The notes under the pieces: model-generated
Told to the model about the DNA's origin: nothing
Databases searched by the model: none
Seen by the model: only the letters and a program-made list of their open reading frames with translations
Part shown: one piece after another, positions 38,657 through 63,454 of the stretch
How the letters are laid out: each line of letters begins with the position of its first letter
Numbering within the stretch: position 1 is the stretch's first letter
Made by a program: the position numbers and the translations under genes
Assembly (NCBI GenBank): GCA_913020295.1
Contig: CAJWAA010000003.1
Location: 1 to 64,000, forward strand
DNA: 64,000 bases
Direction: 5' to 3'
Source: an uncultured Flavobacteriaceae bacterium
GTDB taxonomy: Bacteria; Bacteroidota; Bacteroidia; Flavobacteriales; Flavobacteriaceae

Positions 38657-38658
38657 AG

Positions 38659-47222: not shown

Positions 47223-48578
47223 TCAGAGTCCTGCGATTACCTCAATCTCAGGATGTTGAGCTTTAAAAGCCTCAATGCCTGCCGCAGTTACACGGGTATT
47301 CCACAAGAATAATTTTTTGAGAGCTGTCATTTGCCCAAGGGTGGTAAAAGCTGCGTCAGTCACACGGGTACCGTATAGATTGAGTTCACTAAGATTTTCC
47401 ATTCCCAGAAGTGCTTTTATGCCCTTGTCGGTCACCAATGGATTTTTTTGAATTTTGAGACGGGTAAGGTTGGGGAATGAACTTATGTCACTCAGGAGCT
47501 CATCGCTAAGCATGCAGTCTGCCAAATTGAGCCAGGTTACATTTTCTTTTACTTTTTGCATTTTGAGCAAATCGACTTTTTGGATGGTTTTTGCAGTGAA
47601 TTTCACGTCCAAAAAGCTTTCCTCAGCATTAAGAAAACGCCAAATGTATTTTTCACCATTTAAGCCGTTTAGATCATCGGAAGACAGCGCAGGAAGCTTG
47701 AGGGTTTCCAAATACGATTTTTCCCTAAGGTCAAGCTTGTAAAGGATTTCCATTAGGCGTTGCATTTTTGCATCTTTTCGGGCCAGACTAATTGGCATTA
47801 GTTTTTTTGCTCCCTTGTCAATCCACCATTCCAGTGTAGCGATTTGATCATAACTCATGGGGACTCCAGCAGGAGGCATAAATTTGGGATGGTCATGGGG
47901 AAAACTAATTCTTTTATAGATCAAACTTTCATAGGGTTTGTTTTTTAGAATGCCTACACCGCTATTTCCTCCTTCCATCATACTTTCGAAAGTATTCATA
48001 TTTAGTCCTCCGTAGGCTCTGTTTTTGTTATGGCAGGCCATACATTTCTCTTCCAAAACAGGATAAATCAAATCTTCGAATACATAAAGGGAATCAATTT
48101 CGGAGCGTTCTACTTCCGTCAACGGGGTCACCGAGATTTCCTTTTTGACATAGGGAAGATTTTCAAAGAGGTAGTTTTGGCCATGGGTCATTTCTCCTCC
48201 AAAATGGCCGGTAACCATAAGCAGAATAATTGCGGTTATATTAATGGATCGGGTAAAAGACCGATTAAACCGGAAGTTGAGGTAGAGGAGTAGCCAAATG
48301 ACAAAACACAGGAAAACAAGAGCGACTCCACTCCATCGATGAATGTTTATCTGTTCTTCAAAATAATAGCCATTGTCTCCTAAAAACCACCCAAAGATTG
48401 CGGCAAATAATCCACTTAAGAATGAAAAAAACCATCCCATTGTAATGACCCTTTTGACACTGTTGTTTTTATTTCTCATAAAAACATCAATGGCAATGGT
48501 TAGCAGGATAATACCAATGGGTAGGTGTACCACAAGAGGATGGAGGCTACCGAGAAAATCAAGGAGTTCTGTGCGCAT
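47223..48578 (-). CDS. DUF2231 membrane domain, cytochrome c and leucine-rich-repeat protein
   Basis: The protein has 451 residues. The N-terminal membrane domain has four hydrophobic segments (about residues 10-125) with H-P-L-V-V-H-L-P-I-G, a DUF2231-like motif. Next is a PSCyt1-type cytochrome c module with heme site C-M-A-C-H (179-183) and M-P-P-A-G as the likely axial Met. Residues about 330-451 form leucine-rich repeats (L-T-R-L-K-I, L-S-E-L-N-L-Y, L-K-K-L-F-L-W). It is the last gene of a four-gene operon, 6 nt after DUF1501. The heme suggests membrane-linked electron transfer. Confidence 0.86.
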   Translation of the reverse strand: MRTELLDFLGSLHPLVVHLPIGIILLTIAIDVFMRNKNNSVKRVITMGWFFSFLSGLFAAIFGWFLGDNGYYFEEQINIHRWSGVALVFLCFVIWLLLYLNFRFNRSFTRSINITAIILLMVTGHFGGEMTHGQNYLFENLPYVKKEISVTPLTEVERSEIDSLYVFEDLIYPVLEEKCMACHNKNRAYGGLNMNTFESMMEGGNSGVGILKNKPYESLIYKRISFPHDHPKFMPPAGVPMSYDQIATLEWWIDKGAKKLMPISLARKDAKMQRLMEILYKLDLREKSYLETLKLPALSSDDLNGLNGEKYIWRFLNAEESFLDVKFTAKTIQKVDLLKMQKVKENVTWLNLADCMLSDELLSDISSFPNLTRLKIQKNPLVTDKGIKALLGMENLSELNLYGTRVTDAAFTTLGQMTALKKLFLWNTRVTAAGIEAFKAQHPEIEVIAGL

Positions 48579-48584
48579 ATCTAT

Positions 48585-50051
48585 TTAGGCCAAGACTTCA
48601 TTGACTACATTTCCGTGGACGTCGGTCAATCGGTAGCGTCTGCCTTGAAATTTAAAGGTTAGTTTTTCGTGATCTATGCCTAGCAGGTGCATAAGTGTGG
48701 CTTGGAAATCGTGAATGTGAACAGGTCTTTCAGCGATATTATAACCAAAATCATCGGTAGCACCAATTGTAATTCCTTTTTTGACCCCTGCACCAGCCAT
48801 AAAGACGGTAAAGCAACGGGGGTGGTGATCTCTACCATAGTTGTCTGGTTTGAGCATTCCTTGAGAATAGTTGGTTCGGCCGAACTCTCCTCCCCAAATG
48901 ACTAAGGTATCCTCCAATAGCCCCCTTTGTTTAAGGTCTTGAATTAAACCAGCAGTAGCCTGATCTGTTTCTTTTGCTTGTTTTTTGATGTCCCTAGGCA
49001 AGTTGCCGTGTTGATCCCAACCGCGGTGGTAGAGTTGGATGAATTTGACATCTTTTTCAGCCAATTTTCTGGCGAGAAGGCAATTTGCGGCAAAAGTGCC
49101 AGGGTTTTTACTGTCTTCACCATATAGATCAAAAATGTATTGGGGTTCATCAGACACGTCCATCACTTCAGGGACAGATGTTTGCATACGATAAGCCATT
49201 TCATAGTTGGAAATTTTGGTCAAAATTTCTGGATCGCCAATGTCCGCATGCTGTATTTTTTGCAATTTTTTAAGTGATTTTAGTTGTTCTTCTCTAATTC
49301 CACTTGTTACCCCTGGAGGATTTTTTAGATATAGTACCGCATCTTTTCCAGAGCGAAATTGAACCCCTTGGTGTTGAGAGGGAAGAAAGCCATTACCCCA
49401 AAGACGGGAGTAGATGGGTTGGCCGTTTTTGCCTTTGGTCACCAAAACGACAAATTCGGGCAGGTTTTTGTTATCAGTTCCCAAACCGTAGCTGAGCCAG
49501 GAGCCAATGGACGGCCTGCCGGGCAGTTCAGATCCAGTTTGGATCATGGTGATGGCAGGATCATGATTGATGGCATTGGTATACATGGATTTTATAAAAC
49601 AAAGTTCATCGACTATTTTGGCAGTATGGGGCATGAGTTCACTCATCCACGCGCCACTTTGTCCATGCTGATTGAATTTGAATAGGGAACCGGCCATGGG
49701 GAAAGAATTTTGTCCTGAGCTCATTCCGGTGAGTCTTTGCTCACCTATGATACTTTTGGGCACTTCTTTACCAAACATTTCATTGAGTTTAGGCTTGTAG
49801 TCGAAGAGATCCAATTGGGATGGTGCTCCACTTTGAAACAGGTAGATGACCCTTTTTGCTTTGGGAATGAAGTGGGGAAGTTTCATTTTTTCACTGTCCA
49901 ATAGGTTTAAAAACTCACTTTGACCATAGGCGTTGACTGGGCTAATTAGCGAACCTAAAGAAAGGGCTCCGAGTCCAAGAGAGGTTTTGGTCAGAAAGTC
50001 CCTTCGGGTATAGTTTTTGTTCTCGTTGTGGTGATGGTCGTTGCAGTGCAT
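48585..50051 (-). CDS. DUF1501 family protein with Tat signal
   Basis: I chose ATG 50051 (488 aa), one base after the stop of the upstream gene; a longer start at 50099 would run into that gene. After a His/Asn-rich stretch (H-C-N-D-H-H-H-N) comes the twin-arginine signal T-R-R-D-F-L-T-K and a hydrophobic segment. The DUF1501 core contains F-L-N-L-L-D-like spacing, F-I-Q-L-Y-H-R-G-W-D-Q-H and W-G-G-E-F-G-R-T; the fold is alkaline-phosphatase/sulfatase-like. No T9SS domain, unlike the copy at 38659. In Planctomycetes this family is fused or adjacent to PSCyt1/DUF1553 proteins, as here. Confidence 0.88.
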   Translation of the reverse strand: MHCNDHHHNENKNYTRRDFLTKTSLGLGALSLGSLISPVNAYGQSEFLNLLDSEKMKLPHFIPKAKRVIYLFQSGAPSQLDLFDYKPKLNEMFGKEVPKSIIGEQRLTGMSSGQNSFPMAGSLFKFNQHGQSGAWMSELMPHTAKIVDELCFIKSMYTNAINHDPAITMIQTGSELPGRPSIGSWLSYGLGTDNKNLPEFVVLVTKGKNGQPIYSRLWGNGFLPSQHQGVQFRSGKDAVLYLKNPPGVTSGIREEQLKSLKKLQKIQHADIGDPEILTKISNYEMAYRMQTSVPEVMDVSDEPQYIFDLYGEDSKNPGTFAANCLLARKLAEKDVKFIQLYHRGWDQHGNLPRDIKKQAKETDQATAGLIQDLKQRGLLEDTLVIWGGEFGRTNYSQGMLKPDNYGRDHHPRCFTVFMAGAGVKKGITIGATDDFGYNIAERPVHIHDFQATLMHLLGIDHEKLTFKFQGRRYRLTDVHGNVVNEVLA

Positions 50052-50052
50052 T

Positions 50053-53000
50053 TTATCGTTTGGTATAGGTTTCGTTGTGATTGAGCAGTGTATTGGCAAC
50101 CATAGTCATAGCAGCAGTTTTTACACTGAACAGGTTCATGTCTCTAGCTTTTTCACCTACGCTAAGGACTTGATATGCTTTATCTCTATTTTGTCTAAAA
50201 TATTGGTATTGGCTCTTGTAAAGATTAATCAAGATTTCCAGTTCTTCTTCTTTGGGATGGCGCGAAGTGGCCATGCGGAATCCATGACTGATTTGGTCCT
50301 CTAGGGTCTCTTTGCTTTTGATGATCCGTTCGGCAAAAATTCTAGAGGCTTCAAAAAATTGGGGGTCATTTAGTAGAACAAGTGCTTGAAGTGGGGTTGA
50401 GGTTACCTCTCTTTTTACAGTACAAACCTCTCTGGAAGTAGCATCGAAAGTGAGCATATTTGGGGGTGGTGAAGTTCTTCGTATAAAGGTGTATAGTCCT
50501 CTTCTGTAGAGATCTTCTCCTTGAGATTCTTTATATTCTAAGAGAAAGGTGGAGAAGTTATTTTTCTCTTTCCAGAGCCCCTTGGGCTGATAGGGTCTGA
50601 CACTTTCCCCTCCAACTTTTGTGTTTAGAAGGCCACTGACTTTTAGTGCATTATCCCTGATGATCTCTGCTGGTAGTCGTAAGGTATTTGCCCGGGCCAA
50701 TAGGAGGTTGTTAGGGTCTTTTTGCTCAAGTACTGGACTGCTTATCGATTGTTGTTGGTAGGTTTTTGACAGGACCATTTTTTTGATCAATGCCTTTAAA
50801 TCCCAATCTTCGCTAAAACTAACGGCCAGCCAGTCAAGGAGCTCTGGATGTGTGGGTAATTGTCCCTGCACTCCAAAGTCGTTGGGTGTTGTCACGAGTC
50901 CTTTTCCAAAGATCATTTGCCAATATCTGTTGACTGCTACTCTTGCAGTAAGTGGGTTTTTCTTATCAAAAAGCCACTGACTAAGGCCCAATCGATTTTT
51001 AGGTAGATTTTTATCCATTGCGGGAAGTACTCCTGGTACTTTGGCCTCTACTGTATATAAGGGCTCATTGTAATTTCCGCGATTATATAGATAGGTTTGA
51101 CGCGGCTCCTCCATTTCACGCATAACCATAATTTCGGGTATGGGTTCATAAATTTCCAAATATTGCTCCCGATTCTCTTTGAGCTCCTTTTTGAGCTTGA
51201 GGATTTTGGGATCTTTTTCAATGAGATGATTTTGAACTACTGGCCATTGTATTTCATCTTTTTGTTTTGAGTTTTCGGAGTATATCGATTGAACTTCAAA
51301 GGGCGTTAGCACTCCGTTGAAAAATTTCAGTTCGTCGAGCTTACCAGTGAATAAGCCGTAGTCCCCCGTGGAACCTTCGTAGGATTTTCCAATAATTAAA
51401 TTTCTTTGAGCACTTACGAAGCCTTTTTCTCTATCTCGATAGGTGGGTTTTATGGTTTTGTAAAGGTTGTCTACAACGGTTTCAGTTTCTATTTTTTTTC
51501 CATTATGAAAAAATTGAACACCTTCTGTTTTTCCACTACCGTCCACAGTAAGGGTAAGGTGTTGCCACGCATTCAATTTTAGGGAGTCCACTGACCTTAC
51601 ATGGATGAGGTTGGAGGGGGCTATGTTAATTAAACGGAGATTAACTTTATTTTGGTCGTCCAAATAACATTCCCACCCGCGCCAAAGGTCATTTTTCCCT
51701 CCAGAATTGGCTATTAGTGATTGAGAAGATCCTTCTTTTCTTTTACTGGTATTCAACCAAATGGAGAAGGAGAAGGGATCGGTCCATTCAAGGTTAGGAA
51801 TCAATTTGTTGGTGATGTATAGCTGATCGTGATCTTTACTGAATTGAAATGCATTTCCTTTAATTCCAGAAACGATTTCGGGCATTTGATCAATCTTACC
51901 ATAAAAGTCTCTTTTTCCGTCAACACCGTGTCTTCTTTTCTTTATTTTAGACATTTTTTCAAAGCCACCATGAAAAACTGATTGCGGTTTTGCTTCAGTT
52001 TTTAGAGCGAGTTCCTCAGAATATTGATATATTTTTTTTAATTGTTCACGGGTAATGGCGATGTCTCTTTTTATACGGCTAAGTCCGTGATTGAGCTGAT
52101 CTAACTTGGCCTGGGCTTCCTTATTGGAGAGTGGTAGAAGGGGTCCAAACTCTCCGTCATCTCCTGTCATCCCAAGTTCTCTAATGTTATTAAAGAAAGC
52201 CGTAAGCTGGAAATAATCTTTTTGAGAAATAGGATCAAATTTATGATCATGGCATTTGGCGCATGCTACTGTAAGTCCTAAAAATGCTGTGGAAAGTGTT
52301 TCAGTTCGATCAAAAACATAGTGTAAACGCCATTCTTCGTCGATGACCCCACCTTCTGCGGTCATGGGGCTATTTCTATTGAATGCGGTGGCAAGTTTCT
52401 GCTCTTGAGTGGCTTCGGGAAGGAGGTCTCCGGCTAGTTGCCAGGTTACGAATTGGTCGTAGGGCATATTTTCTTTAAAGGCCTTAAGCACCCAGTCCCT
52501 CCAGGGCCACATGGTCCGAATACCATCTGCATGTAAACCGTGGGAATCAGCATAACGAGACAGGTCAAGCCAGTCAAGGGCCAAGCGTTCTGCAAATGCG
52601 TCTGTTTTAAGAAGTTGATCTACTAGGTTTTCATAAGCGTGATCACTTTTGTCATCTAAAAAAGTGTCGAGCTCCTCAATGGAAGGTGGCAGCCCAATCA
52701 AATCTAAGTAAAGCCTCCTGGCCAAAATAGCTTTTGAGGCTTTTGGGGAAAAATCTAGGCCTTCCTGTTCTAATTTCATCTTAACGAATTGATCAATAGG
52801 ATTTTGTAAGGCACTGGCATTTGTTTTGAGTATTTGTTTTTTGGGAGGTAAAAATGCCCAATGTTCTTTCCATTCTGCCCCTTGTTCTATCCATTTAAAA
52901 ATGATGGCTTTTTCTCTATTGGTCAGAGACAAGTTGGCTTCGGGGGGTGGCATGATCACATCAGGATCTTTGTTTATGATCCTGTGGGCACTTTCACTTT

Positions 53001-53271
53001 TGTATAAATTGCCTGAGCTAAAAGCTGTTTTTCCACTTTCCAATTTGGAAAAAGCTATAGACTCTACATCCAATCTTAATCCAGCTTTTCGGGTTTTTTC
53101 ATCGGGGCCGTGGCATTGATAACATCGGTCAGAGAGTATGGGTTTGACGTGGTAATTGAAGTCGATCACTTCCGGTAAATTACTGTATTCCTGAGTGATT
53201 TCAGTAGGGACTTCGAGCGAGCACGAAAGTAGAAGACCAGCCAAGGCAATAATAGAATAAACCTTTTTCAT
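50053..53271 (-). CDS. PSCyt1-DUF1549-LamG-DUF1553 lipoprotein cytochrome
   Basis: ATG 53271 gives 1,072 residues. The SPII signal ends L-L-L-S-C (Cys17). Domains in order: PSCyt1 with C-Y-Q-C-H (50-54) and axial M-P-P-P near residue 107; DUF1549 at about 150-360 (L-D-L-I-G-L-P-P-S, W-L-D-L-S-R-Y-A-D-S-H-G); a second C-x-x-C-H (C-A-K-C-H, about residue 340); a coiled coil; a LamG/concanavalin-like domain at about 440-670; and DUF1553 at about 760-1060 (N-R-Y-W-Q-M-I-F-G-K-G-L, T-S-T-P-L-Q-A-L-V-L-L-N-D-P). It is probably surface or periplasmic, and the LamG domain may bind glycan. It lies 50 nt after the esterase gene. Confidence 0.9.
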   Translation of the reverse strand: MKKVYSIIALAGLLLSCSLEVPTEITQEYSNLPEVIDFNYHVKPILSDRCYQCHGPDEKTRKAGLRLDVESIAFSKLESGKTAFSSGNLYKSESAHRIINKDPDVIMPPPEANLSLTNREKAIIFKWIEQGAEWKEHWAFLPPKKQILKTNASALQNPIDQFVKMKLEQEGLDFSPKASKAILARRLYLDLIGLPPSIEELDTFLDDKSDHAYENLVDQLLKTDAFAERLALDWLDLSRYADSHGLHADGIRTMWPWRDWVLKAFKENMPYDQFVTWQLAGDLLPEATQEQKLATAFNRNSPMTAEGGVIDEEWRLHYVFDRTETLSTAFLGLTVACAKCHDHKFDPISQKDYFQLTAFFNNIRELGMTGDDGEFGPLLPLSNKEAQAKLDQLNHGLSRIKRDIAITREQLKKIYQYSEELALKTEAKPQSVFHGGFEKMSKIKKRRHGVDGKRDFYGKIDQMPEIVSGIKGNAFQFSKDHDQLYITNKLIPNLEWTDPFSFSIWLNTSKRKEGSSQSLIANSGGKNDLWRGWECYLDDQNKVNLRLINIAPSNLIHVRSVDSLKLNAWQHLTLTVDGSGKTEGVQFFHNGKKIETETVVDNLYKTIKPTYRDREKGFVSAQRNLIIGKSYEGSTGDYGLFTGKLDELKFFNGVLTPFEVQSIYSENSKQKDEIQWPVVQNHLIEKDPKILKLKKELKENREQYLEIYEPIPEIMVMREMEEPRQTYLYNRGNYNEPLYTVEAKVPGVLPAMDKNLPKNRLGLSQWLFDKKNPLTARVAVNRYWQMIFGKGLVTTPNDFGVQGQLPTHPELLDWLAVSFSEDWDLKALIKKMVLSKTYQQQSISSPVLEQKDPNNLLLARANTLRLPAEIIRDNALKVSGLLNTKVGGESVRPYQPKGLWKEKNNFSTFLLEYKESQGEDLYRRGLYTFIRRTSPPPNMLTFDATSREVCTVKREVTSTPLQALVLLNDPQFFEASRIFAERIIKSKETLEDQISHGFRMATSRHPKEEELEILINLYKSQYQYFRQNRDKAYQVLSVGEKARDMNLFSVKTAAMTMVANTLLNHNETYTKR

Positions 53272-53321
53272 CACCAACAAAAGCGTTTATATACTTATAA
53301 AATGGTTAATAGCTAAGTTAA

Positions 53322-54560
53322 TTAATTTTTGTAATAAAAATAGGGAGCTTTGTTATTTGGAAATTTTAGGAATTTCAGGACTTCGTATTCATTTTTCAGC
53401 GCAGAGGAAGGCCGTGGATTTTTAGGGGTAAATACTTTGAGTTTTTCAGGGGGAAGTATTTTGATAAAACTTTCGTCTATGGGACCTCCACTAAGGGATT
53501 TGGGATTTTCGAGTTTTAGGTGTTTTGTGAAAAAATGATAGGCAGCTATTCTTTTGGAATAACCATAGTCATGTTTTTCGTTGGCTAAATGTACATTTTC
53601 GACAAGATGGGATTTGCCCATAGCATTATAAACTTTTCTAATGTAGGGGAATTCTACATTTGGTGTATTGCGGGTCCAATCATCCCCATTGGAGATGAGT
53701 AACATGGGTCGTGGAGCAGCTAGAGCAGCTATCTCTACATTGTTGGTTTGAAAGTTGGCCGCCTTGTGAATAGGCATTCCGCTTTCGCAAACGCAACCTC
53801 CAAAAAAGTGAGCAGATACTTGCACTACAGGCACAGATACTTTGATCCTTTGATCAAGTGCGGTAAGTATAAAGGTTTGGGTACCTCCCCCAGAACCCCC
53901 AGTCATACCTACCCTTTTTGGGTCAACCTTCGGAAGACTCAATAAATAGTCAAGCACACGCTTGCTGTTCCATGTTTGTAATAACAAGCTAATAGGCATT
54001 TTGTGTCTGACTTGTTTACTTTCTCCATAACCTAACATGTCGTAGGCAAATACAATCGCACCTTTACTTGCCAAATATGCACTGCGGAGCTGTACATAGT
54101 CAGTGAAGCGTTTGTCTTTGAGGTGCCCATGGGGACTTAATATGGCCGCGTATTGATTTTGTTTTTTGAGAGGGCGGTATAGGTTTCCGGTGACATAAAA
54201 TCCTGGAAAACTTTCTAGGGCGATATTTTCTACAATATACCCTTCCATTATTTTTTCAGAATGTTTGATGACGTTGATTGGGCCTTTGTGGGAGGAAATT
54301 TTATTCCATTGCATTCCCTCCAGGATGTTTTGTCTAATGACTTTGGCTCTTTTTTCCCAGGATTGGGCATCGTTCCAATAACCGGAGAAGACATCCATTT
54401 TTATTTTTCCTTCGGCATCAGTCCAGTAACGTCCATTACAAATCATATTGTTTTGCTCCAAAATGGTTCCCTGATTAGTTTCAATTTTAAACCCTTGAGA
54501 CAGTAGCAAATTAGAGCTGATAATTGCCAAACTGAAAAAAAGTCTTAGTAAGGATTTCAT
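53322..54560 (-). CDS. Secreted acetyl-xylan-esterase-like alpha/beta hydrolase (CE7/CE15-like)
   Basis: The protein has 412 residues with signal peptide ending L-L-L-S-Q. The nucleophile elbow is G-G-S-G-G (Ser223) in V-G-M-T-G-G-S-G-G-G-T. P-H-G-H (143-146) is the oxyanion region and E-K-H-D-Y-G holds the likely catalytic His. G-G-C-V-C-E-S-G near 250 suggests a disulfide. It removes acetyl or methyl-uronate esters from polysaccharides. It is the first gene of the minus-strand cytochrome/DUF1501 operon, linking that set to glycans. Confidence 0.82.
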   Translation of the reverse strand: MKSLLRLFFSLAIISSNLLLSQGFKIETNQGTILEQNNMICNGRYWTDAEGKIKMDVFSGYWNDAQSWEKRAKVIRQNILEGMQWNKISSHKGPINVIKHSEKIMEGYIVENIALESFPGFYVTGNLYRPLKKQNQYAAILSPHGHLKDKRFTDYVQLRSAYLASKGAIVFAYDMLGYGESKQVRHKMPISLLLQTWNSKRVLDYLLSLPKVDPKRVGMTGGSGGGTQTFILTALDQRIKVSVPVVQVSAHFFGGCVCESGMPIHKAANFQTNNVEIAALAAPRPMLLISNGDDWTRNTPNVEFPYIRKVYNAMGKSHLVENVHLANEKHDYGYSKRIAAYHFFTKHLKLENPKSLSGGPIDESFIKILPPEKLKVFTPKNPRPSSALKNEYEVLKFLKFPNNKAPYFYYKN

Positions 54561-54897
54561 TTGTGAAATTTCAAATAGACATACAATTTAGAAAACCTTA
54601 CACAAAAAAAAAATAATATTTTTTGAAATGCAGCTGGTTATTTAATTCTGAGCATCAATGGCCAATAATAAATTAAACTAATTTTTAACCCAAACAAATA
54701 ACCTTTTTAATTTATAAAAGGATTGAGTTTAAAAATTTATTTAAAATCATTTAAAAAACTTTACAAGTTTATAGCTCAATTTTGGTGAGTCAACCAAAAG
54801 GTTTTTAAATTATAAATAACTATTTCTAGGGACATAATCTAAAAAAACTCTTATTTGAAATTCCAAATTGTTAATTTTAAATAAATTTAAAATACTA
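54561..54897. other. Very AT-rich divergent intergenic region
   Basis: This 337-bp spacer separates the minus-strand esterase operon from the plus-strand sulfatase and marks a sharp drop in GC. It must carry both promoters. I found only imperfect -7-like boxes (for example TCTATTTG on the minus strand just upstream of 54560) and no clear -33 partner. Confidence 0.45.
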
Positions 54898-56289
54898 ATG
54901 AAGCAATATAATTTGGGAATTTTAATCGTAATTATTTTTTCACTCCAAAATATTATAAAAGCAAATGATTTACCAAATATTGTATTTTTCATAGCAGACG
55001 ATTTAGGAGTTTATCATACATCTGCGTATGGTGCTGATTGGATATCTACTCCCAACATCAAATTTCTCTCTGAACAAGGAATGAAGTTTAACAGAGCCTA
55101 TGTGGCGTCACCAAGTTGTGTACCTAGTAGGGCTGCATTAATGACAGGGTTGATGCCATATAAAAATGGAATTGTTGGAAATCATGAAAAAGTGAGGAAG
55201 CCAAACGTCGAGCCTTTACTTCCAATATTAATTGACCTTGGATACGAAATAGTTTGGCTGGGAAAGGTTGGGCATGGACCAGGCTCAGACTCAGGAAATG
55301 AGATCAATGTAATAGAAACTGAAGGTTTCAGACCTCAACCAAAAGAGCTTGAAGTATTTCTTAAAAATAGAAAGAGTAATCGACCAATTATTATATTTTT
55401 TGGCACTAGATATCCACACAGACCATGGCCAGAGCAGGATAATGTGCGTATCAAGCCAAATGAAGTTGAAATTCCAGAAAAAACCTTTGATACTTACGAG
55501 GCAAGAATGGAAATTTCAAGATATGTTGAAGCTGTTGAGATTGTTGATAGAAAGTTTGGTGAAATTGAAGAATTAATAAAAAAATATTTGAAAACTAAAA
55601 ATACTATAACCATTTTCACTTCTGATAATGGGCAAGCATGGCCTTTTGCAAAATGGGATTTATATGAGACTGGAATAAGAACCCCTTTATTAATTAGATG
55701 GCCTAACAAAATTAAACCTAAATCAGTTTCTGATGCAATGGTTAGTTGGATTGACTTGATTCCAACAATTATTGATATCGCTGGTGGGAAAATTCCATGG
55801 GAAATTGATGGTATTTCATTTAAAGAAAATTTAATTGGAAAAAAATTAACCCATAGAGATAAAATTTTTGGGGTTCATAAAGGTGACAACAATTGGAATG
55901 TGTATCCTATTAGATCAGTCAGAAATGACAAATGGAAATATATATATAATATCCATCCCGAGTTTTATCGAACAACTCATATGGATCTCGTAAAAAAAGA
56001 ATCAAAATTTCATAATCGACAGTGGAGATCTTGGGTTAAAGCTTCAAATGAAAATATATTAGCCATGAAATTTCTTAAAGCATACCACACGAGGCCTAAG
56101 GAGGAACTTTACAGAGTGGATGTTGATTCTTTTGAATATGAAAATTTGGCAAATAATCCCAAGTACAAATCTGTTGTTAAAAAAATGAGAAAAATTTTAT
56201 TTGACAGAATGAAAAGAGTAGGTGACGATCAATCATTGAGTGGAAAACCAAGATTTTTAAAAGATTATAGCTTTTTTAGTACCAATTAA
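54898..56289 (+). CDS. Secreted S1-type sulfatase (heparan-N-sulfatase-like)
   Basis: I chose ATG 54898 (463 aa), ahead of a clean signal peptide ending I-K-A-N; a start at 54868 adds ten unlikely residues. Metal site I-A-D-D-L-G (32-37), formylglycine motif C-V-P-S-R (Cys74), G-K-V-G-H and T-S-D-N-G-Q are present. The C-V-P-S-R form and short length resemble the sulfamidase/S1_8 group. It is AT-rich like its downstream neighbours and convergent with GH51 (37 bp). Confidence 0.92.
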   Translation: MKQYNLGILIVIIFSLQNIIKANDLPNIVFFIADDLGVYHTSAYGADWISTPNIKFLSEQGMKFNRAYVASPSCVPSRAALMTGLMPYKNGIVGNHEKVRKPNVEPLLPILIDLGYEIVWLGKVGHGPGSDSGNEINVIETEGFRPQPKELEVFLKNRKSNRPIIIFFGTRYPHRPWPEQDNVRIKPNEVEIPEKTFDTYEARMEISRYVEAVEIVDRKFGEIEELIKKYLKTKNTITIFTSDNGQAWPFAKWDLYETGIRTPLLIRWPNKIKPKSVSDAMVSWIDLIPTIIDIAGGKIPWEIDGISFKENLIGKKLTHRDKIFGVHKGDNNWNVYPIRSVRNDKWKYIYNIHPEFYRTTHMDLVKKESKFHNRQWRSWVKASNENILAMKFLKAYHTRPKEELYRVDVDSFEYENLANNPKYKSVVKKMRKILFDRMKRVGDDQSLSGKPRFLKDYSFFSTN

Positions 56290-56326
56290 ATGATCTTGAT
56301 AATATTATCACATTAACAAATTGGAA

Positions 56327-57895
56327 TTATAATTTATTTCTATCAGTTATAAGTTTAATTAACATTACTGAGTGGGGTGGGATTTTAAAATCGAGATTTT
56401 CCGAATTGAATTTAAATTTTGTAAATAAAACAGATTTTACTAAATCATTTTTTTTAAAATTATTGTGGGCATTAATTTTTTCTGAAGAAATAATATTTAT
56501 TCTCACATCTTTGATATTCAAATCAAATAATTCAAATAAAACTTTATGTGATTTTTTGTTATCTATATTTACTAGAGAAATATTAATATTTCCTAATTTG
56601 TCTCTTGAAGCCGATGCATTAAGTGCTTTAAGACTCTCTAATTTGTGTTTGTAAATTGGAGAATCAAATTTTAGATTAACAAGTTCAGCATTTTGATGAA
56701 CAGAATATAGTTTCATTACATGGTAAGTAGGTGTCAAAATAATTTTATTCCCTTCGGTCAAAATTATAGCCTGAAGAACATTAACAGTTTGAGCTAGATT
56801 AGCCATTTTTACTCGTCTAGCGTGGTTATTGAAAATATTCAAAGTTACCCCAGCAATTATTGCATCCCTCATTGTATTTTGCTGATACAAAAATCTTGGT
56901 TTAGTGCCTATTTCCTCTCCATACCATGACCCCCATTCGTCTACAACTAAATCTATTTTCTGATCTTTGTCATATTTATCCATTATGGTAATATGATTTT
57001 TTATTATTTCTTCGATTTTAAGCGCACTTTTGATTGTCATAAAGTAATCCTTTGGACTAAAATTTATAGCTGAGCCAGAAGGATTTTTACCTGCACCTAT
57101 TACACCGGAGGCTGATGTGTAGTAGTGTAAGGAAATTGCCTCTATTAATTTTTTTGGAATATTTTTAAGTAGAACTTCAGTCCAATTATAATTTTCGCCA
57201 TATGCACCAGCAGCAACTCTATATATATTATTGCTGTTTTGTCTATTCGTCATAAATGATGAATACAATCGGAATTTGTTTGCATAAAATTCAGCTGTCA
57301 TCATACCGCCACATCCCCAAGTTTCATTTCCTACACCCCAAAACTTTACGTTCCAAGGTGCTTCACGACCATTTTTTTTTCTTAATTCAGACATCGGGCT
57401 TTTACCATCGTGATTGGTGTATTGGATCCAATCCATAACATCTCTTACAGAACCAGTTCCAATATTGGCAGAAATAAATGGTTCCGTACCTAATTCCTCA
57501 CAAAGATTTAAAAAATCATGAGTACCAAAACTATTATCTTCAGTTTCTCCACCCCACCAAATGTTAACTATTGAGGGACGTTTTTCTTTAGGCCCAATTC
57601 CATCCTTCCAATGATAATAGTCTGCAAAACAACCTCCAGGCCATCTTAAATTAGGTATTTTTAATTGTTTTAAAGCTTCAATTATATCAATCCTAACTCC
57701 GTTAAGATTCGGGATTTCACTATTCTTGCCGACATATATTCCATCATAAATACACCTTCCCAAATGTTCTGCAAAATGCCCATAAATATGTTTGCTGATT
57801 GTTGTTGTTGTTTTTGGAATTCGTATATTTATTTTTGTCTGAGCCATAGCAAGACTGAAACAAAAAAATATTATAGCAAATACGTAAACTCTCAT
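56327..57895 (-). CDS. Secreted GH51 alpha-L-arabinofuranosidase
   Basis: The protein has 522 residues with a signal peptide ending A-M-A-Q. The GH51 barrel starts I-S-K-H-I-Y-G-H-F-A-E-H-L-G. R-W-P-G-G (84-88), the acid/base Glu191 in G-V-G-N-E-T-W-G and the nucleophile Glu320 in V-D-E-W-G are conserved. It releases terminal L-arabinofuranose, which araB-D-A would metabolise. It is divergent from the GH43 gene with only 37 bp between start codons. Confidence 0.94.
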   Translation of the reverse strand: MRVYVFAIIFFCFSLAMAQTKINIRIPKTTTTISKHIYGHFAEHLGRCIYDGIYVGKNSEIPNLNGVRIDIIEALKQLKIPNLRWPGGCFADYYHWKDGIGPKEKRPSIVNIWWGGETEDNSFGTHDFLNLCEELGTEPFISANIGTGSVRDVMDWIQYTNHDGKSPMSELRKKNGREAPWNVKFWGVGNETWGCGGMMTAEFYANKFRLYSSFMTNRQNSNNIYRVAAGAYGENYNWTEVLLKNIPKKLIEAISLHYYTSASGVIGAGKNPSGSAINFSPKDYFMTIKSALKIEEIIKNHITIMDKYDKDQKIDLVVDEWGSWYGEEIGTKPRFLYQQNTMRDAIIAGVTLNIFNNHARRVKMANLAQTVNVLQAIILTEGNKIILTPTYHVMKLYSVHQNAELVNLKFDSPIYKHKLESLKALNASASRDKLGNINISLVNIDNKKSHKVLFELFDLNIKDVRINIISSEKINAHNNFKKNDLVKSVLFTKFKFNSENLDFKIPPHSVMLIKLITDRNKL

Positions 57896-57932
57896 AAATA
57901 CTGGCTAATTAAATAAGTTTTATTAAAACACT

Positions 57933-59294
57933 ATGATTACCAAATTACCAAGAAATTTTTTAACAAATCTTTTTTTTTTCATTTTTATTGTGGGATATAA
58001 TTTCTCACTCTCTCAAAATCCAATAATACCAAATAAGGGAGTCAATGATCCCCACATAAGAATAATTGATGACAGGGCATATCTCGCCGCATCACACGAC
58101 AGAAGTTCAAAAAATAAAACTTTTGAGATGGATGATTGGTGGCTTTGGTCATCAGATAATTTGGTAGATTGGCATCTTGTCAAAAAATTATCCCCCAAAG
58201 AAACATACATAGGCAATGCATATAATAAATGCTGGGCCACTGATATAGTCAAAAGAAATGATAAATATTATTGGTACTTCTCAGAGGCTAACATTAATTC
58301 AGGAGTTGTAATGGCTGAAGATCCAATGGGTCCTTGGGTTGACCCACTCGGGGAACCTCTGCTAAAAGAAGATTTAACACCTACCAAAGAATATGATATG
58401 GGAATTTTTGAAGATGTTGACGGTGATTTTTATATCGTATTTGGAATATGGGATTATTACATAGCTAAGTTAAATGATGATATGATATCCTTAGCTGAAG
58501 CTCCAAAAAAAATTATTGTAAGTAATCCAAGGGGGCCTTACAACCTATGCGGAACTAGAAAAGAAAAGACAACAGATGACAAACCTTTTATACATTATTA
58601 TAATAAAAAATATTATTTATCATGGGGATGTTTTTATGCAATTTCAGATAATGTATATGGTCCATATGACTATAAAGGGTCTATAATTGAAAGTAAAAGT
58701 TTTGCTCATGGTTATGATTCGCCAACATGGCCAAATGGATTTAAACAAGGACGTCATGGATCTTTTTTTAATTGGCATAATCAATGGTACTTTGCATATT
58801 GCGATATGAGTCAAACAGGTAACCGATATTTCCGAGATACATTTATTAGTTATGTTAATTATAGGGAAAATGGGGAAATAGCACCAATAAGGGTAGATGG
58901 TGTAGGAGTAGGAAATTTTGATATTAATAAAGGTGATATTAATGCTGTAGAATATTTTAAGTCGGTTGGGGTAAAAAAAATTGAAAATACTGATGGCTCA
59001 TTCTCAATTTCAGAGATTGGAGATAAAGATTTTTTAGTATTTAATAAAATCAGGGGTCTTAAAGGAAAAAAACACATAAAGTTTACTGGAAAATTTAATC
59101 ATAATTTTAAAATTGAAGCTAGGCTAGATTCTCCAAGTGGTGAGTTAATTGGATCATATAATTTTGATCATCGAAATAAGATTGATGAATATGAATTTAA
59201 ATTCTCATCAATTAAAGATACTATAAACTTGTGCATACTTTTTCGTGGGGAAAAAGATAAATTTGGGGACTTAAAAAAAATCAGTTTTAGATAA
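57933..59294 (+). CDS. Secreted GH43 family glycosidase (arabinanase/arabinofuranosidase/xylosidase type)
   Basis: The protein has 453 residues with signal peptide ending L-S-Q. The five-bladed propeller has the base Asp39 in V-N-D-P-H, blade motif S-S-D-N-L-V-D-W, a likely pKa-tuning Asp155 in E-Y-D-M-G-I-F, and R-H-G-S-F-F-N-W (about 272-279). A C-terminal ~110-residue beta domain (after about 340) may bind carbohydrate. Head-to-head with GH51 and near araBDA, it most likely acts on arabinose linkages. It ends 7 nt from the convergent sulfatase. Confidence 0.88.
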   Translation: MITKLPRNFLTNLFFFIFIVGYNFSLSQNPIIPNKGVNDPHIRIIDDRAYLAASHDRSSKNKTFEMDDWWLWSSDNLVDWHLVKKLSPKETYIGNAYNKCWATDIVKRNDKYYWYFSEANINSGVVMAEDPMGPWVDPLGEPLLKEDLTPTKEYDMGIFEDVDGDFYIVFGIWDYYIAKLNDDMISLAEAPKKIIVSNPRGPYNLCGTRKEKTTDDKPFIHYYNKKYYLSWGCFYAISDNVYGPYDYKGSIIESKSFAHGYDSPTWPNGFKQGRHGSFFNWHNQWYFAYCDMSQTGNRYFRDTFISYVNYRENGEIAPIRVDGVGVGNFDINKGDINAVEYFKSVGVKKIENTDGSFSISEIGDKDFLVFNKIRGLKGKKHIKFTGKFNHNFKIEARLDSPSGELIGSYNFDHRNKIDEYEFKFSSIKDTINLCILFRGEKDKFGDLKKISFR

Positions 59295-59301
59295 CTTTTT
59301 A

Positions 59302-60840
59302 CTATTTTGGCCTAGGATCATTCTTTATTTTTGAAATTGGTATGAATCCAGTTTTTTTTATTTTTCCATCATAAACTTTATATCCTTTTGGAGGTTTTAT
59401 AGTTTTATCAAAACTTTCCTTCAATTCTAATCTATCAGATAATTGTTTTCTAAAATCATCTATTTTCTCTTTAAACCCAGGATCATATGCTAAATTTTCA
59501 AATTCGTTTGGATCTGTTTGATGATTATACAATTCTTCAAGATTATTGGAAGCATAAAAAATATACCTGAAATTTTTGCTTCTTAAGGAATGACCGATAT
59601 CTCCAGAACTAAATTTAAAACTAGTCATTGCAGATTTTTTTCTCTTAGCATGAATATTCTGTAGTTGAGGTAGTAAGCTCTCCCCATTACAATGATTGGG
59701 AGGCTCATAACCAGCAAGCTCTGCCAAAGTTGGATAAATGTCGACAAGTGACACTGGTTCATCACATTGAATTCCATTTGAACTCATATTAGGAAAACTA
59801 ATAAAAAGTGGAACTCTAGTTGATTCTTCCCAAAGTGAAAATTTTTCCCAATTTTCTTTTTCACCAATGTGCATCCCATGGTCAGACCACAATATAATAA
59901 TTGTATTTTTTGAGTGTTTTGATGCCTTAAGAGCTCTCATTACTCTACCTATTTGATTATCGGCGAATGCAATGGATGCTAGATATGCTTGGATTACCTT
60001 TTCCCACTGCATATTGTCCTGAACAAACTTATGCCACTTTCTTCTACCATGGTCATATGCATCTTCAAGGTCATTTTCTTTAGTTTTCAATGGTTTAATA
60101 TCTTCTAGCGGGAACATATCAAAGTATTTTTTTGGAACCTCCCAGGGCATATGTGGACGAAATAAACCAAATGCCAAAAAAAGTGGTTTTTCATGATCTT
60201 TTTTAAGCTCTGAAATAACCCAATCAACAACATGGTAATCGCTCATTTTATTGTCATCTAAATCGAGAGGCCCCCATGTAAAATACTTATGCCTTTTACC
60301 AATAAAATAGTCAGGGTCAATTATTTCTTTTTTACCTCTAATTTGAAATGGAATGGGAGCATAAATATTGGGATAGTAAAAATCCCAGCCATTTGGATCC
60401 GCTTGATTTATTAGTGTCCAGGGAGGAGCTAATGAATGATAAATTTTACCACCACCTAATGTTTTATATCCCCTGTTTTTGAAAAATTGATCTATTGTTT
60501 CAATATTTTTCAAAGAAGGGATTTCCCTCCATTTTGGTCCATCATACCATTGATTATCTAGAACACTTGATTTATGAGGCATTACACCAGTCATAACAGA
60601 TAACCGGGATGGAGAGCATGCTGGTGAGGAACAATGGGCATTAGAAAATAAAATAGAATTTTTAGCTAGACTGTCAAGATTTGGAGTTTTTGTTATTGAA
60701 AGTCCACCCAATGGACCAATCCAATCATTCATATCATCTATTGCGATAAATAGAATATTTGGTTTGTCTTTAATCTGAGCTTTTAGGTTTGTGTTCAATA
60801 ATATAGCTATTAAAAAACATAAATTGGAGAGTGTTTTCAT
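59302..60840 (-). CDS. Secreted S1-type sulfatase (iduronate-2-sulfatase-like)
   Basis: The protein has 512 residues with signal peptide ending L-K-A-Q. Metal site I-D-D-M-N-D-W (34-40) and formylglycine motif C-S-P-S-R (Cys75) with the I-D-D-M-N-D spelling typical of iduronate-2-sulfatase-like (S1_7) members. G-G-G-K-I-Y-H and W-S-D-H-G-M-H-I-G-E-K are also present. It would remove sulfate from the arabinose- or uronate-containing polymer. It is convergent with GH43 and divergent from araB by 243 bp. Confidence 0.92.
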   Translation of the reverse strand: MKTLSNLCFLIAILLNTNLKAQIKDKPNILFIAIDDMNDWIGPLGGLSITKTPNLDSLAKNSILFSNAHCSSPACSPSRLSVMTGVMPHKSSVLDNQWYDGPKWREIPSLKNIETIDQFFKNRGYKTLGGGKIYHSLAPPWTLINQADPNGWDFYYPNIYAPIPFQIRGKKEIIDPDYFIGKRHKYFTWGPLDLDDNKMSDYHVVDWVISELKKDHEKPLFLAFGLFRPHMPWEVPKKYFDMFPLEDIKPLKTKENDLEDAYDHGRRKWHKFVQDNMQWEKVIQAYLASIAFADNQIGRVMRALKASKHSKNTIIILWSDHGMHIGEKENWEKFSLWEESTRVPLFISFPNMSSNGIQCDEPVSLVDIYPTLAELAGYEPPNHCNGESLLPQLQNIHAKRKKSAMTSFKFSSGDIGHSLRSKNFRYIFYASNNLEELYNHQTDPNEFENLAYDPGFKEKIDDFRKQLSDRLELKESFDKTIKPPKGYKVYDGKIKKTGFIPISKIKNDPRPK

Positions 60841-61083
60841 TTTTAAAGTAAATTAAAGTTCATTTGGATTTGATTTGAATGGATTTATTGATAAATTCCT
60901 AATATAGTTTATTTGAAATTTTTAAATAATTTTTAAAATTAAATTTTTTATTTAAAGTGCATAGTGCGAGATTATCTATAGTTGTTTATTATTTTTAAAT
61001 ACTTAATATTTTTAACAAGAAAGGTCATTTCACATAAGCACTACTAATTAATTAAATTCAATTTGTAATTTTCTGAATAGTCT

Positions 61084-62748
61084 ATGAATTCATATGTTAT
61101 TGGTGTCGATTTTGGAACGGATTCAGTAAGAGCTTTACTTGTAGATTCTATTTCTGGTGAAGAATTAGAAGATTCGGTTTGCATATATGATAAATGGTCA
61201 AAAGGTATGTTTTGTGAGCCAAAAAAAAACCAATTTAGACAACATCCTTCAGACCATTTAATTGGATTAGAGAATAGCGTAAAAGAATTAATATCTAAGT
61301 CTAAAATTAATCCTGACCAAGTTAAAGCCTTAAGTATTGACACTACTGGATCATCCCCTATCGCAGTAAATGAGAAAGGTAATGCACTTGTATTTGAAAA
61401 AGGATTTGAAAATAATCCTAATGCAATGGTCATTCTTTGGAAAGATCACACAGCCACAAAAGAAGCAAATGAAATAAATGATTTAATAGCCAAGCATAAC
61501 CTTAAGTATCTAAAATATTCTGGAGGAATTTATTCCTCAGAATGGTTTTGGGCTAAAATCTTACATATAATTAGAATTGATAAATCTGTTAAGGACTTTG
61601 GATATTCATGGATGGAACATTGTGATTATTTGACATTCAATTTGATAGAGGAAAGTAATTTATTAAACTTTAAAAGAAGTAGGTGTGCTGCAGGACATAA
61701 AGCAATGTGGCACAAGTCTTGGAATGGTTTACCAAGTACAGAGTTTTTAAATTCATTAGATCCCTACCTGGGAAATTTAAGGGATAAATTATATAACGAA
61801 ACATATTCATCTGATTGTGCAGCGGGAAACTTATGTGGAAAATGGGCAAAGAAACTTGGTCTTAATACAAAAACAATTATTGGTGTAGGTACTTTTGATG
61901 CTCACGCTGCTGCAATTGGGGCTAGAGTAGATAAGAATATCTTAGTTAAGGTAATGGGTACTTCAACCTGTGATATAACAATTGGCGATTCAAAACTATT
62001 AAGTAAAAAAGTAGTAAGGGGGATTTGTGGTCAGGTAGATGGATCAGTAATCCCTGGTTACTATGGATTAGAGGCTGGTCAGTCGGCATTCGGAGACTTT
62101 CTTGCTTGGTTTAAAAAAATACTTCAGTGGCCACTAGAAAATACTTTAAAAAAAATTGATTCAATTGATAACATTCAAAAAAATCAAATTATATCAATTT
62201 GTGAGGAAAGGTTAATTGAAGATTTAACTGATGCCGCATCAAAAATAAAAGATGACTCTGGAATTCCAAATTCACTTGACTGGATAAATGGAAGAAGAAC
62301 ACCTGATGCTAATCAAAATTTAAAATCAGCATTTTCAAATTTGACACTTGGTAGTGGTTCACCAGAAATATTTCTTTCTTTAATATATTCAATTTGTTTT
62401 GGTTCAAAAAAAATCATTGACAGATTTGAGGAGGAGGGTGTAGAGATAAAGAAAATAATCGGTGTAGGGGGAGTTGCTAGAAAATCATCATTTATAATGC
62501 AAACCCTTTCAAATGTTTTAGATTTACCCGTTACTGTATGTAAATCTGATCAAACTTCAGCTCTAGGAACAGCAATTTTTGCTGCAGTAGCAGGTGGAAT
62601 TTACAGGTCAATTCCAGATGCGATTAAAATAATGGGAAGTAAATCTGACATAATTTATTTTCCAGAAAAAAGTGAGGTTTTAAGATTAAAAATACTTTAC
62701 AATAAATACAATCAATTTTCAAGATTTATTGAAGATCAATTAAATTAA
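61084..62748 (+). CDS. araB: L-ribulokinase
   Basis: The protein has 554 residues, close to E. coli AraB (566). FGGY-kinase signs are G-V-D-F-G-T-D-S-V-R-A-L-L-V-D (residues 7-21), I-D-T-T-G-S-S-P, M-G-T-S-T-C-D-I and G-V-G-G-V-A-R-K-S near the C-terminus. It phosphorylates L-ribulose at O5. It lies 4 nt before araD, which lies 3 nt before araA, so the order is B-D-A in one operon. Release of arabinose by GH51 and GH43 would feed it. Confidence 0.95.
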   Translation: MNSYVIGVDFGTDSVRALLVDSISGEELEDSVCIYDKWSKGMFCEPKKNQFRQHPSDHLIGLENSVKELISKSKINPDQVKALSIDTTGSSPIAVNEKGNALVFEKGFENNPNAMVILWKDHTATKEANEINDLIAKHNLKYLKYSGGIYSSEWFWAKILHIIRIDKSVKDFGYSWMEHCDYLTFNLIEESNLLNFKRSRCAAGHKAMWHKSWNGLPSTEFLNSLDPYLGNLRDKLYNETYSSDCAAGNLCGKWAKKLGLNTKTIIGVGTFDAHAAAIGARVDKNILVKVMGTSTCDITIGDSKLLSKKVVRGICGQVDGSVIPGYYGLEAGQSAFGDFLAWFKKILQWPLENTLKKIDSIDNIQKNQIISICEERLIEDLTDAASKIKDDSGIPNSLDWINGRRTPDANQNLKSAFSNLTLGSGSPEIFLSLIYSICFGSKKIIDRFEEEGVEIKKIIGVGGVARKSSFIMQTLSNVLDLPVTVCKSDQTSALGTAIFAAVAGGIYRSIPDAIKIMGSKSDIIYFPEKSEVLRLKILYNKYNQFSRFIEDQLN

Positions 62749-62752
62749 TAAA

Positions 62753-63451
62753 ATGAGTAATTTCTCAAAGTTAAAAGAAGAATGCTATCAGGCAAATATG
62801 GAGCTTGATAGGACAGGTTTAGTTTTCCATACATTTGGAAATGTAAGTGCGTCAGATCAAAAGAATAAAGTTTTTGCAATTAAACCAAGTGGAGTTAAAT
62901 ATGACGAGTTAACGCCAGAAAATATGGTAATAGTAGATTTTGAAAATAATATAATTGATGGTGATTTAAGACCCTCATCTGATACTAGAACCCATTCTTA
63001 TCTTTATAAGATGTGGCCTAGAATTGGTGGTATTTCACACACTCATGCATTATATTCTGTGGCTTGGTCTCAAGCATTAAGAAGTATTCCAATATATGGC
63101 ACTACTCACGCAGACCACCAAAAAAACGATATACCATGTACGCCACCATTAGATGATGACATGATTAAAGGAAATTACGAACACAATACAGGAATACAAA
63201 TTGTAAATAATTTCACAGAGAATAATTATGATTACAATGAAATTCAGATGGTATTGGTTGGAAATCATGGCCCATTTAGTTGGGGAGAAAATGCCTCTAA
63301 ATCAGTTTTTAATTCGAGAGTACTTGAGGAGATAGCTAAAATGGCATTTCTAACTGAAAAAATTAATCCAAATGTAAAAAGATTAAAAAAATCACTTATT
63401 GATAAACACTATCAAAGAAAAAGGGGTAAAAATAGATATTATGGTCAATAA
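62753..63451 (+). CDS. araD: L-ribulose-5-phosphate 4-epimerase
   Basis: The protein has 232 residues (E. coli 231). Class II aldolase/epimerase signs are F-G-N-V-S-A (about 24-29), I-K-P-S-G-V-K-Y-D, S-S-D-T-R-T-H, the zinc site H-T-H-A-L-Y-S (about 96-102) and G-N-H-G-P-F-S-W-G near 175. It converts L-ribulose-5-phosphate to D-xylulose-5-phosphate for the pentose phosphate pathway. Confidence 0.95.
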   Translation: MSNFSKLKEECYQANMELDRTGLVFHTFGNVSASDQKNKVFAIKPSGVKYDELTPENMVIVDFENNIIDGDLRPSSDTRTHSYLYKMWPRIGGISHTHALYSVAWSQALRSIPIYGTTHADHQKNDIPCTPPLDDDMIKGNYEHNTGIQIVNNFTENNYDYNEIQMVLVGNHGPFSWGENASKSVFNSRVLEEIAKMAFLTEKINPNVKRLKKSLIDKHYQRKRGKNRYYGQ

Positions 63452-63454
63452 TAT

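Follow-up and report, generated by a model that had tools for sequence, protein, structure and literature searches.

A DUF2231-PSCyt1-LRR protein as third partner of the PSD1-DUF1501 gene pair in an operon of an uncultured Flavobacteriaceae bacterium

The PSCyt and PSD genes of lake Verrucomicrobia have been described together with their conserved neighbours, the carbohydrate-binding modules of their products and, for some lake genomes, sulfatases nearby; in the available part of that account their function is unexplained, and DUF1501 is not named in its main text (He et al., 2017; PMC5615132). Rhodopirellula baltica carries 41 copies each of PSD1 and PSCyt2, for which a suggested redox function is cited (PMC2754498). 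PMC4452313 and PMC4960237 cite a genomic module with DUF1501 (Kamneva, 2012), PMC5122149 likewise refers to the DUF1501 clusters of that study, and in the accessible text of a further paper DUF1501 is mentioned only as an amplicon match (PMC4982196). The open-licence PMC papers searched give the PSD1-DUF1501 module no function, and neither the one paper listed for DUF2231 nor the one listed for PF09990 is about PSCyt proteins, to judge by title and the start of the abstract. Here we describe a four-gene operon from an uncultured Flavobacteriaceae bacterium (assembly GCA_913020295.1, contig CAJWAA010000003.1), located in what we call the window, the whole stretch of 64,000 nucleotides (nt) that was analysed. 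The operon encodes an esterase, a PSD1 protein, a DUF1501 protein and a protein that joins DUF2231, PSCyt1 and leucine-rich repeats (LRR) (Table 1). A first-pass annotation had proposed it as a candidate for an undescribed system, a description that does not stand beside the PSCyt clusters and DUF1501 module already in print, at least as far as those sources could be consulted. What is newly found is that a widespread kind of PSCyt system, known chiefly from Planctomycetes and described but functionally unexplained, has a third partner in the DUF2231-PSCyt1-LRR protein and also exists in a minimal, fused form.

The four genes form a true operon. They are separated by 50, 1 and 6 nt (ATG starts at 53271 and 50051), and their order, domains and spacing, as first annotated, are confirmed by the open reading frame (ORF) coordinates and by Pfam matches above the cut-offs for PSD1 (4e-97), PSCyt2 (3e-84), DUF1501 (1e-157), PSCyt1 (2e-14 and 2e-10) and DUF2231 (2e-8). 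PSCyt1, PSCyt2 and PSD1 are united in a single protein of the window. The three heme motifs reported earlier are indeed present as three CxxCH sequences and predicted heme sites, two in the PSD1 protein (C50-H54 in PSCyt1 and C337-H341 in PSCyt2) and the third, C179-H183, in the DUF2231 protein, and the same holds for the lectin-like laminin G (LamG) domain, the alkaline phosphatase superfamily protein with a twin-arginine translocation (Tat) signal and the membrane module. The CxxCH of PSCyt2 is invariant in 49/49 aligned proteins, that of the DUF2231 protein in 19/19, and that of PSCyt1 in PSD1 proteins is at least 90% conserved; Met107 of the last-named domain is likely the distal heme ligand. 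The genome, which is 91% complete and amounts to 1.97 Mb on 27 contigs, carries genes for cytochrome c assembly (PF01578) and TatC. Promoter-like and terminator-like elements were no more numerous than in shuffled sequence.

Table 1. Coordinates of the operon genes, their domains and one conserved codon (positions of the window)
Feature	Position	Strand	Basis
Carbohydrate-esterase-like alpha/beta hydrolase, 412 amino acids, optional first gene	53322..54560	-	Pfam GCE_fung/AXE1; 6goc match
PSD1 protein, PSCyt1-PSCyt2(DUF1549)-LamG-PSD1(DUF1553), 1072 amino acids, N-terminal lipobox LLSC	50053..53271	-	Pfam
PSCyt1 domain of PSD1 protein, CxxCH at 53110-53124, conserved Met107 (MPPP)	52939..53124	-	Pfam, alignment
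PSCyt2 (DUF1549) domain, CxxCH at 52249-52263, then D-H-K	52180..52800	-	Pfam, alignment
Laminin_G_3 (LamG) stretch between PSCyt2 and PSD1, without counterpart in the compact C10 paralogue	51289..51798	-	Pfam
PSD1 (DUF1553) domain	50221..50997	-	Pfam
DUF1501 protein, 488 amino acids, Tat signal RRDFL, predicted sulfatase/alkaline phosphatase superfamily fold	48585..50051	-	Pfam, model
His163 codon, matched by motif spacing to the sulfatase Cys	49563..49565	-	invariant in 59/59 aligned DUF1501 proteins
DUF2231-PSCyt1-LRR_4 protein, 451 amino acids, third core component in Bacteroidota	47223..48578	-	Pfam, profile search
DUF2231 membrane domain; His13, His18, His80 and His125 invariant in 19/19	48186..48545	-	Pfam, alignment
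PSCyt1 domain of DUF2231 protein, CxxCH at 48030-48044, conserved Met234	47865..48044	-	Pfam, alignment
Leucine-rich repeats LRR_4	47292..47396	-	Pfam

Profile searches tie the third partner closely to PSD1. PSD1 occurs in 49 of 395 Bacteroidota genomes, and the DUF2231-PSCyt1-LRR protein, full-length or cut by a contig end, in 46 of these 49 and in none of the other 346 (Fisher p 6e-57, a value that ignores phylogeny). Both searches covered 395 genomes, with the same genomes among the matches listed, and scored at most six PSD1 and three DUF2231-PSCyt1-LRR candidates per genome, so that every copy number is a minimum and an absence applies to that depth. Three PSD1 genomes (G308, G343 and G429) gave no match to the third partner, and in one of the 46 (G315) the only match is cut by the contig start. 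Fifty-eight of the 69 copies listed lie within 8 kb downstream of PSD1 on the same strand, 53 of them within 3.5 kb; the figure of 69 excludes shorter DUF2231-PSCyt1 matches, mostly in frames of 790-1215 amino acids (fusions and unopened proteins). Many other genomes of the 395 match only the cytochrome part of the profile.

Natural fusions are the strongest sign that DUF2231 and PSD1 belong to one machine. In three genomes (L157, L158 and L159) our own hidden Markov models (HMMs) place DUF2231, PSCyt1, PSCyt2 and PSD1 in a single ORF of 783-817 amino acids beside DUF1501, and Pfam confirms the fusion in L158. These are the three that were examined of the six low-scoring PSD1 matches listed.

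The reading that we prefer, at a probability of roughly 40%, is that of a periplasmic redox enzyme with three components, encoded together with an accessory esterase, a de-esterified imported oligosaccharide being the least certain element as its substrate. PSD1 and DUF1501 would constitute the periplasmic catalytic unit, and the LamG domain and LRR may bind substrate or partners. Electrons might pass between this unit and the quinone pool along the PSCyt2 heme, the PSCyt1 heme of the same protein, the DUF2231-linked PSCyt1 heme and the His cluster of DUF2231; as to their direction, substrate oxidation is the simpler guess. A fifth His of DUF2231, His132, lies just beyond the Pfam match and is likewise invariant in 19/19. 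Hydrophobic segments and Arg/Lys-rich loops, read directly from the sequence, suggest a four-helix domain of N-out topology whose five invariant His face the periplasm near PSCyt1, where the cluster may form a heme b or metal site. Least certain of all, the esterase would first de-esterify an imported oligosaccharide of a methyl-esterified, sulfated glycan, and the redox unit would then perform oxidation beyond the reach of hydrolases. Tat signals mark proteins that are exported folded or with a cofactor. Loading of a DUF1501 cofactor in the cytoplasm would fit the Tat Arg pair, which is invariant in 59/59 DUF1501 proteins, and the different signal of PSD1, of the lipoprotein or helix type.

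Conservation of the gene order differs with phylogenetic distance. In all 16 same-genus orthologous loci fetched (L054-L069) the three-gene core of PSD1, DUF1501 and DUF2231-PSCyt1-LRR is adjacent on one strand, and the arrangement is therefore not due to chance; contig ends truncate two of these loci (L054 and L069), and two others (L067 and L068) have PSD1 in the form of two ORFs. The interrupted reading frames, at 7930-12541 of L067 (PSD1 and esterase) and 7914-11133 of L068 (PSD1), reflect either decay or assembly error. Identity to the window copy within the genus is highest for DUF1501 (84.0-96.5%); with pieces counted in, PSD1 spans 60-91%, the esterase 56-82% and the DUF2231 protein 50-74%. 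We also compiled 80 named loci, labelled as Bacteroidota, Planctomycetes, Verrucomicrobia, Acidobacteria or one of a few further groups. In best-segment identity a Flavobacteriaceae metagenome-assembled genome (MAG; L075) ranks first among them, at 56%. After 15 loci that were cut off or had no callable PSD1 ORF had been dropped, 65 were left, and in 58 of these a same-strand DUF1501 gene came after PSD1, at a median nominal gap of 5 nt; the 58 comprise 23/23 in Bacteroidota and 35/42 elsewhere, with all seven failures outside Bacteroidota. Within 6.5 kb, a DUF2231 gene is present in 10 of the 19 named Bacteroidota loci that could be evaluated and in one of 30 others, a Rhodanobacteraceae-labelled MAG. 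Hence, when the four-gene order is compared across groups as first proposed, the three-gene core persists outside the genus and the full order does not: four genes are a genus trait, three are common in Bacteroidota, and the PSD1-DUF1501 pair is the general unit.

Elsewhere a beta-propeller appears as an optional extra partner. All six neighbour proteins picked for scanning matched NHL or DUF5128, an Arg pair stands in four of the five propeller N-termini inspected, and the window genome gave only a weak match to one such protein (E 3.5e-5). In a genome of the same family (G023) a cassette of PSD1, DUF1501, propeller and DUF2231 is followed by a gene of the CCP_MauG diheme-peroxidase family (L072, 15339-16511).

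The esterase matches BT1017, a pectin methylesterase (PDB 6goc; PMC7939467), at E 5.5e-70 over query residues 46-389, with Ser223, Asp294 and His330 aligned at the spacing of the BT1017 triad Ser282, Asp352 and His388. Because the three residues are in register within this match, the enzyme likely removes the methyl group from a uronate ester. It differs from BT1017 in length (412 residues against 658 in the 6goc chain) and in lacking a DUF3826 match in Pfam. Its place in the operon is not fixed, contrary to the initial description of an operon led by an esterase: of the 13 same-genus loci that could be evaluated, 10 have it immediately upstream (in two pieces in L067) and three lack it although upstream sequence exists (L063, L064 and L068), while three more end at a contig edge (L061, L062 and L069). 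Outside the genus, the esterase HMM matched two of the 80 named loci, downstream in L080 and on the other strand in L135, and gave no match among the 168 neighbours that surround 20 cassettes in other genomes.

These 20 cassettes, hand-picked from different genomes of the phylum for a nearby third gene and a long contig (the DUF2231 gene lying downstream of PSD1 in 19 and upstream in one, L180), bear on the substrate. In the window the operon adjoins a candidate sulfated-arabinan cluster (54868-64000, also L023) of sulfatases, GH51-like and GH43 glycoside hydrolases, an FGGY kinase, a class II aldolase and an L-arabinose isomerase, over which the G+C content drops from about 0.41 to 0.31 and which is partly syntenic in L057. 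Several results weigh against a glycan substrate and against parts of the proposed electron path. Sulfatases account for none of the 168 neighbours of the 20 cassettes, compared with two of 250 control proteins from stretches on the same contigs, as judged by an HMM that was built from five window sulfatases and that distant ones may escape. Among the 125 neighbours scanned with Pfam, a scan that stands without control rates since none of the 250 control proteins was scanned, the NHL propeller was commonest (8), the next families had three members each, and carbohydrate enzymes are scarce in the 25 families listed of 172, with two putative glucoamylases and one member each of GH77 and GH92. 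The window genome has 44 PF00884 matches, or about 40 sulfatase genes once split entries and the DUF1501 of contig C1 are removed, and the position of two of its four cassettes beside a sulfatase is for this reason weak evidence. Finally, DUF2231 is not found within 6.5 kb in 9 of 19 Bacteroidota and 29 of 30 other evaluable named loci, and so cannot be the sole electron route. A sulfatase-like gene occurs in 13 of the 80 named loci, a count made without control. About 40 sulfatase genes would seem a high number for 1.97 Mb. Association with sulfatases was accordingly rejected as substrate evidence, the same-contig controls giving it no support, and since they are not enriched around the 20 other cassettes a polysaccharide or glycan substrate is only a local suggestion. 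The attack on polysaccharide that had been proposed at the outset is thus not borne out.

The same results suit a general-purpose periplasmic redox module with a non-carbohydrate substrate, for which the glycan neighbourhood would be incidental in a small genome rich in polysaccharide genes; this account is possible, if not the one that we favour. Besides the absence of sulfatases from the 168 neighbours and the abundance of sulfatase genes in the genome, it is consistent with the finding that the 125 scanned neighbours are mostly unrelated to each other. It also agrees with the setting of two paralogous cassettes, that on contig C10 amid housekeeping genes and that on C1 beside respiratory genes, as judged by eye on N-terminal sequences alone. 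The genome holds four PSD1-DUF1501 pairs, on C3 (the window operon), C10, C11 (where a sulfatase gene follows the cassette) and C1, and a fifth PSD1-like copy, cut short, at the end of C17. The neighbours of two of these paralogues speak against a general-purpose module: a gene for a polysaccharide lyase of family PL8 directly follows the C10 cassette (L019, 14761-17046; Pfam), which has a DUF2231-PSCyt1 protein and a PSD1 protein without LamG, and a DUF4838 protein gene precedes the C1 cassette. So do the LamG domain of the window PSD1 protein, the esterase gene that most loci of the genus include in the operon, and the other carbohydrate-binding modules reported for PSCyt proteins in the available text of PMC5615132.

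A further cassette of the genome, on C6 (L022, 8476-13445), encodes a 1208-residue protein with a DUF2231-PSCyt1 front end on a different body and a second CxxCH near the C-terminus; its gene overlaps by a few bases the gene of a 448-residue partner with a Tat signal. Its DUF2231-like and PSCyt1 front end and the adjoining Tat-signal partner gene recall the window operon, from whose PSD1 protein it differs in its C-terminal part and in giving no match to PF07587. This cassette may be PSCyt3/DUF1552-like.

That the operon specifies a cell-surface complex attacking intact polysaccharide by redox chemistry, as originally envisaged, is improbable. The lipobox and LamG domain of the PSD1 protein and the sulfatase and esterase neighbours in the window would agree with such a location. 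Among 15 PSD1 proteins inspected, eight have a strict lipobox pattern, five have a Cys after a hydrophobic stretch with an unusual residue preceding it, and two (L019 and L073) have no lipobox Cys. The compact LamG-less paralogue L019 begins with a hydrophobic helix instead, and the three DUF2231-PSCyt1-PSCyt2-PSD1 fusions place PSD1 beside a multi-helix membrane domain. Together, these two observations point to the periplasmic side of the inner membrane, and not to the cell surface, as the probable workplace of PSD1. The Tat signal of DUF1501 would also direct that protein to the periplasm. Where PMC5615132 could be consulted, PSCyt proteins are predicted to be periplasmic or cytoplasmic.

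A structure model of the window DUF1501 protein (mean predicted local distance difference test score, pLDDT, 83) gave 155 Foldseek matches in the PDB at E <= 0.001, the best to 1p49 at 3e-6, with TM-scores of 0.27-0.46 among the 50 matches listed (sulfatases and alkaline phosphatases). Alignment with hhalign to ten sulfatases from these loci gave a probability of 90% and E 1.4e-6 over the C-terminal part only. The modelled fold is that of the sulfatase/alkaline phosphatase superfamily, to which the formylglycine sulfatases belong. The motif C-x-P/A-x-R-x5-G is present in 10/10 of these sulfatases, and H-x-P-x7-G stands in its place in 59/59 aligned DUF1501 proteins, none of which has the Cys/Ser nucleophile motif C-x-P/A-x-R or its Arg. 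The equivalence of His163 to the sulfatase Cys rests on motif spacing and predicted strand-helix position rather than on coordinates, and its conservation covers these 59 proteins, not all DUF1501. The Asp-Asn metal-ligand pair of sulfatases aligns with Glu389-Phe390, also invariant in 59/59, as are Asp346, His348, Glu389, Arg392, Asp408 and His409, some of which could hold a metal. W-D-x-H and E-F-S-R are retained in the DUF1501 proteins adjoining the DUF2231-PSD1 fusions.

A DUF1800-DUF1501 gene pair, a context already in print (PMC5122149), lies elsewhere in the window on the plus strand (37223-40266; DUF1501 copy at 38659-40266). The latter aligns poorly around His163, retains D-x-H and E-F-G-R, and has a sub-threshold match to a Por secretion tail.

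The superfamily fold and the potential metal ligands among the invariant residues, namely Asp346, His348, Glu389, Asp408 and His409, would permit DUF1501 to be a working sulfatase or phosphatase, the cytochromes being separate or regulatory. We reject a canonical sulfatase on its motifs, given the His at the Cys position, the missing motif Arg and the change of the Asp-Asn pair to Glu-Phe, and regard a hydrolase generally as improbable in view of the same substitutions and of the genetic tie between DUF1501 and cytochromes that 58 of 65 loci show. Bacteroidota and Acidobacteria are not known for internal membranes of the Planctomycetes-Verrucomicrobia-Chlamydiae (PVC) type. A module of such membranes, which papers citing Kamneva (2012) propose DUF1501 clusters to be, would accord with the association reported in the consulted parts of PMC4452313 and PMC4960237 and is very improbable given PSD1 in 49 of 395 genomes, a sample confined to Bacteroidota, and in Acidobacteria-labelled loci.

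The fold of PSD1 was modelled on the compact paralogue L019 (47-48% identical) in place of the window protein, because LamG would bring lectin matches, and what follows therefore covers L019 only. The model (mean pLDDT 89.4, predicted template modelling score 0.89) gave 28 matches in a structure search of the PDB at E <= 10 and none at E <= 0.001; phycobilisome linker domains are among the weak matches (E above 5). A bolder proposal, which we consider unlikely but worth stating, is that PSD1-DUF1501 represents an undescribed class of oxidative enzyme. It would consist of a diheme protein of new fold and a sulfatase-fold partner with a His-based, non-hydrolytic metal site, linked to quinone in Bacteroidota through the DUF2231 His cluster, and might oxidize periplasmic glycan fragments or other metabolites. 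The PSD1-DUF1501 module is present in loci labelled with several phyla and yet is given no function in the papers searched. With a third partner, a two-gene minimal version (fusion and DUF1501) and named cultured species that carry the three genes, such as Pedobacter frigoris and Algoriphagus ornithinivorans (L149 and L150), it becomes testable outside Planctomycetes. Far from the operon, at the left end of the window, a 4301-residue open frame on the minus strand (2-12904) runs off the stretch.

In summary of its relationships, the DUF1501 protein shares the predicted fold of formylglycine sulfatases and alkaline phosphatases and departs from the former in its His, its Glu-Phe pair and its lack of the motif Arg. 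Like the PSCyt clusters, so far as these are laid out in the accessible text of PMC5615132, the window operon combines PSCyt and PSD domains with a conserved neighbour of unassigned function and with Laminin_G_3; in this window sulfatases also lie nearby. It is unlike them in its dedicated DUF2231-PSCyt1-LRR component and in the genus-level esterase at its front, and its Bacteroidota relatives differ from them further in the fusion of DUF2231 to PSD1.

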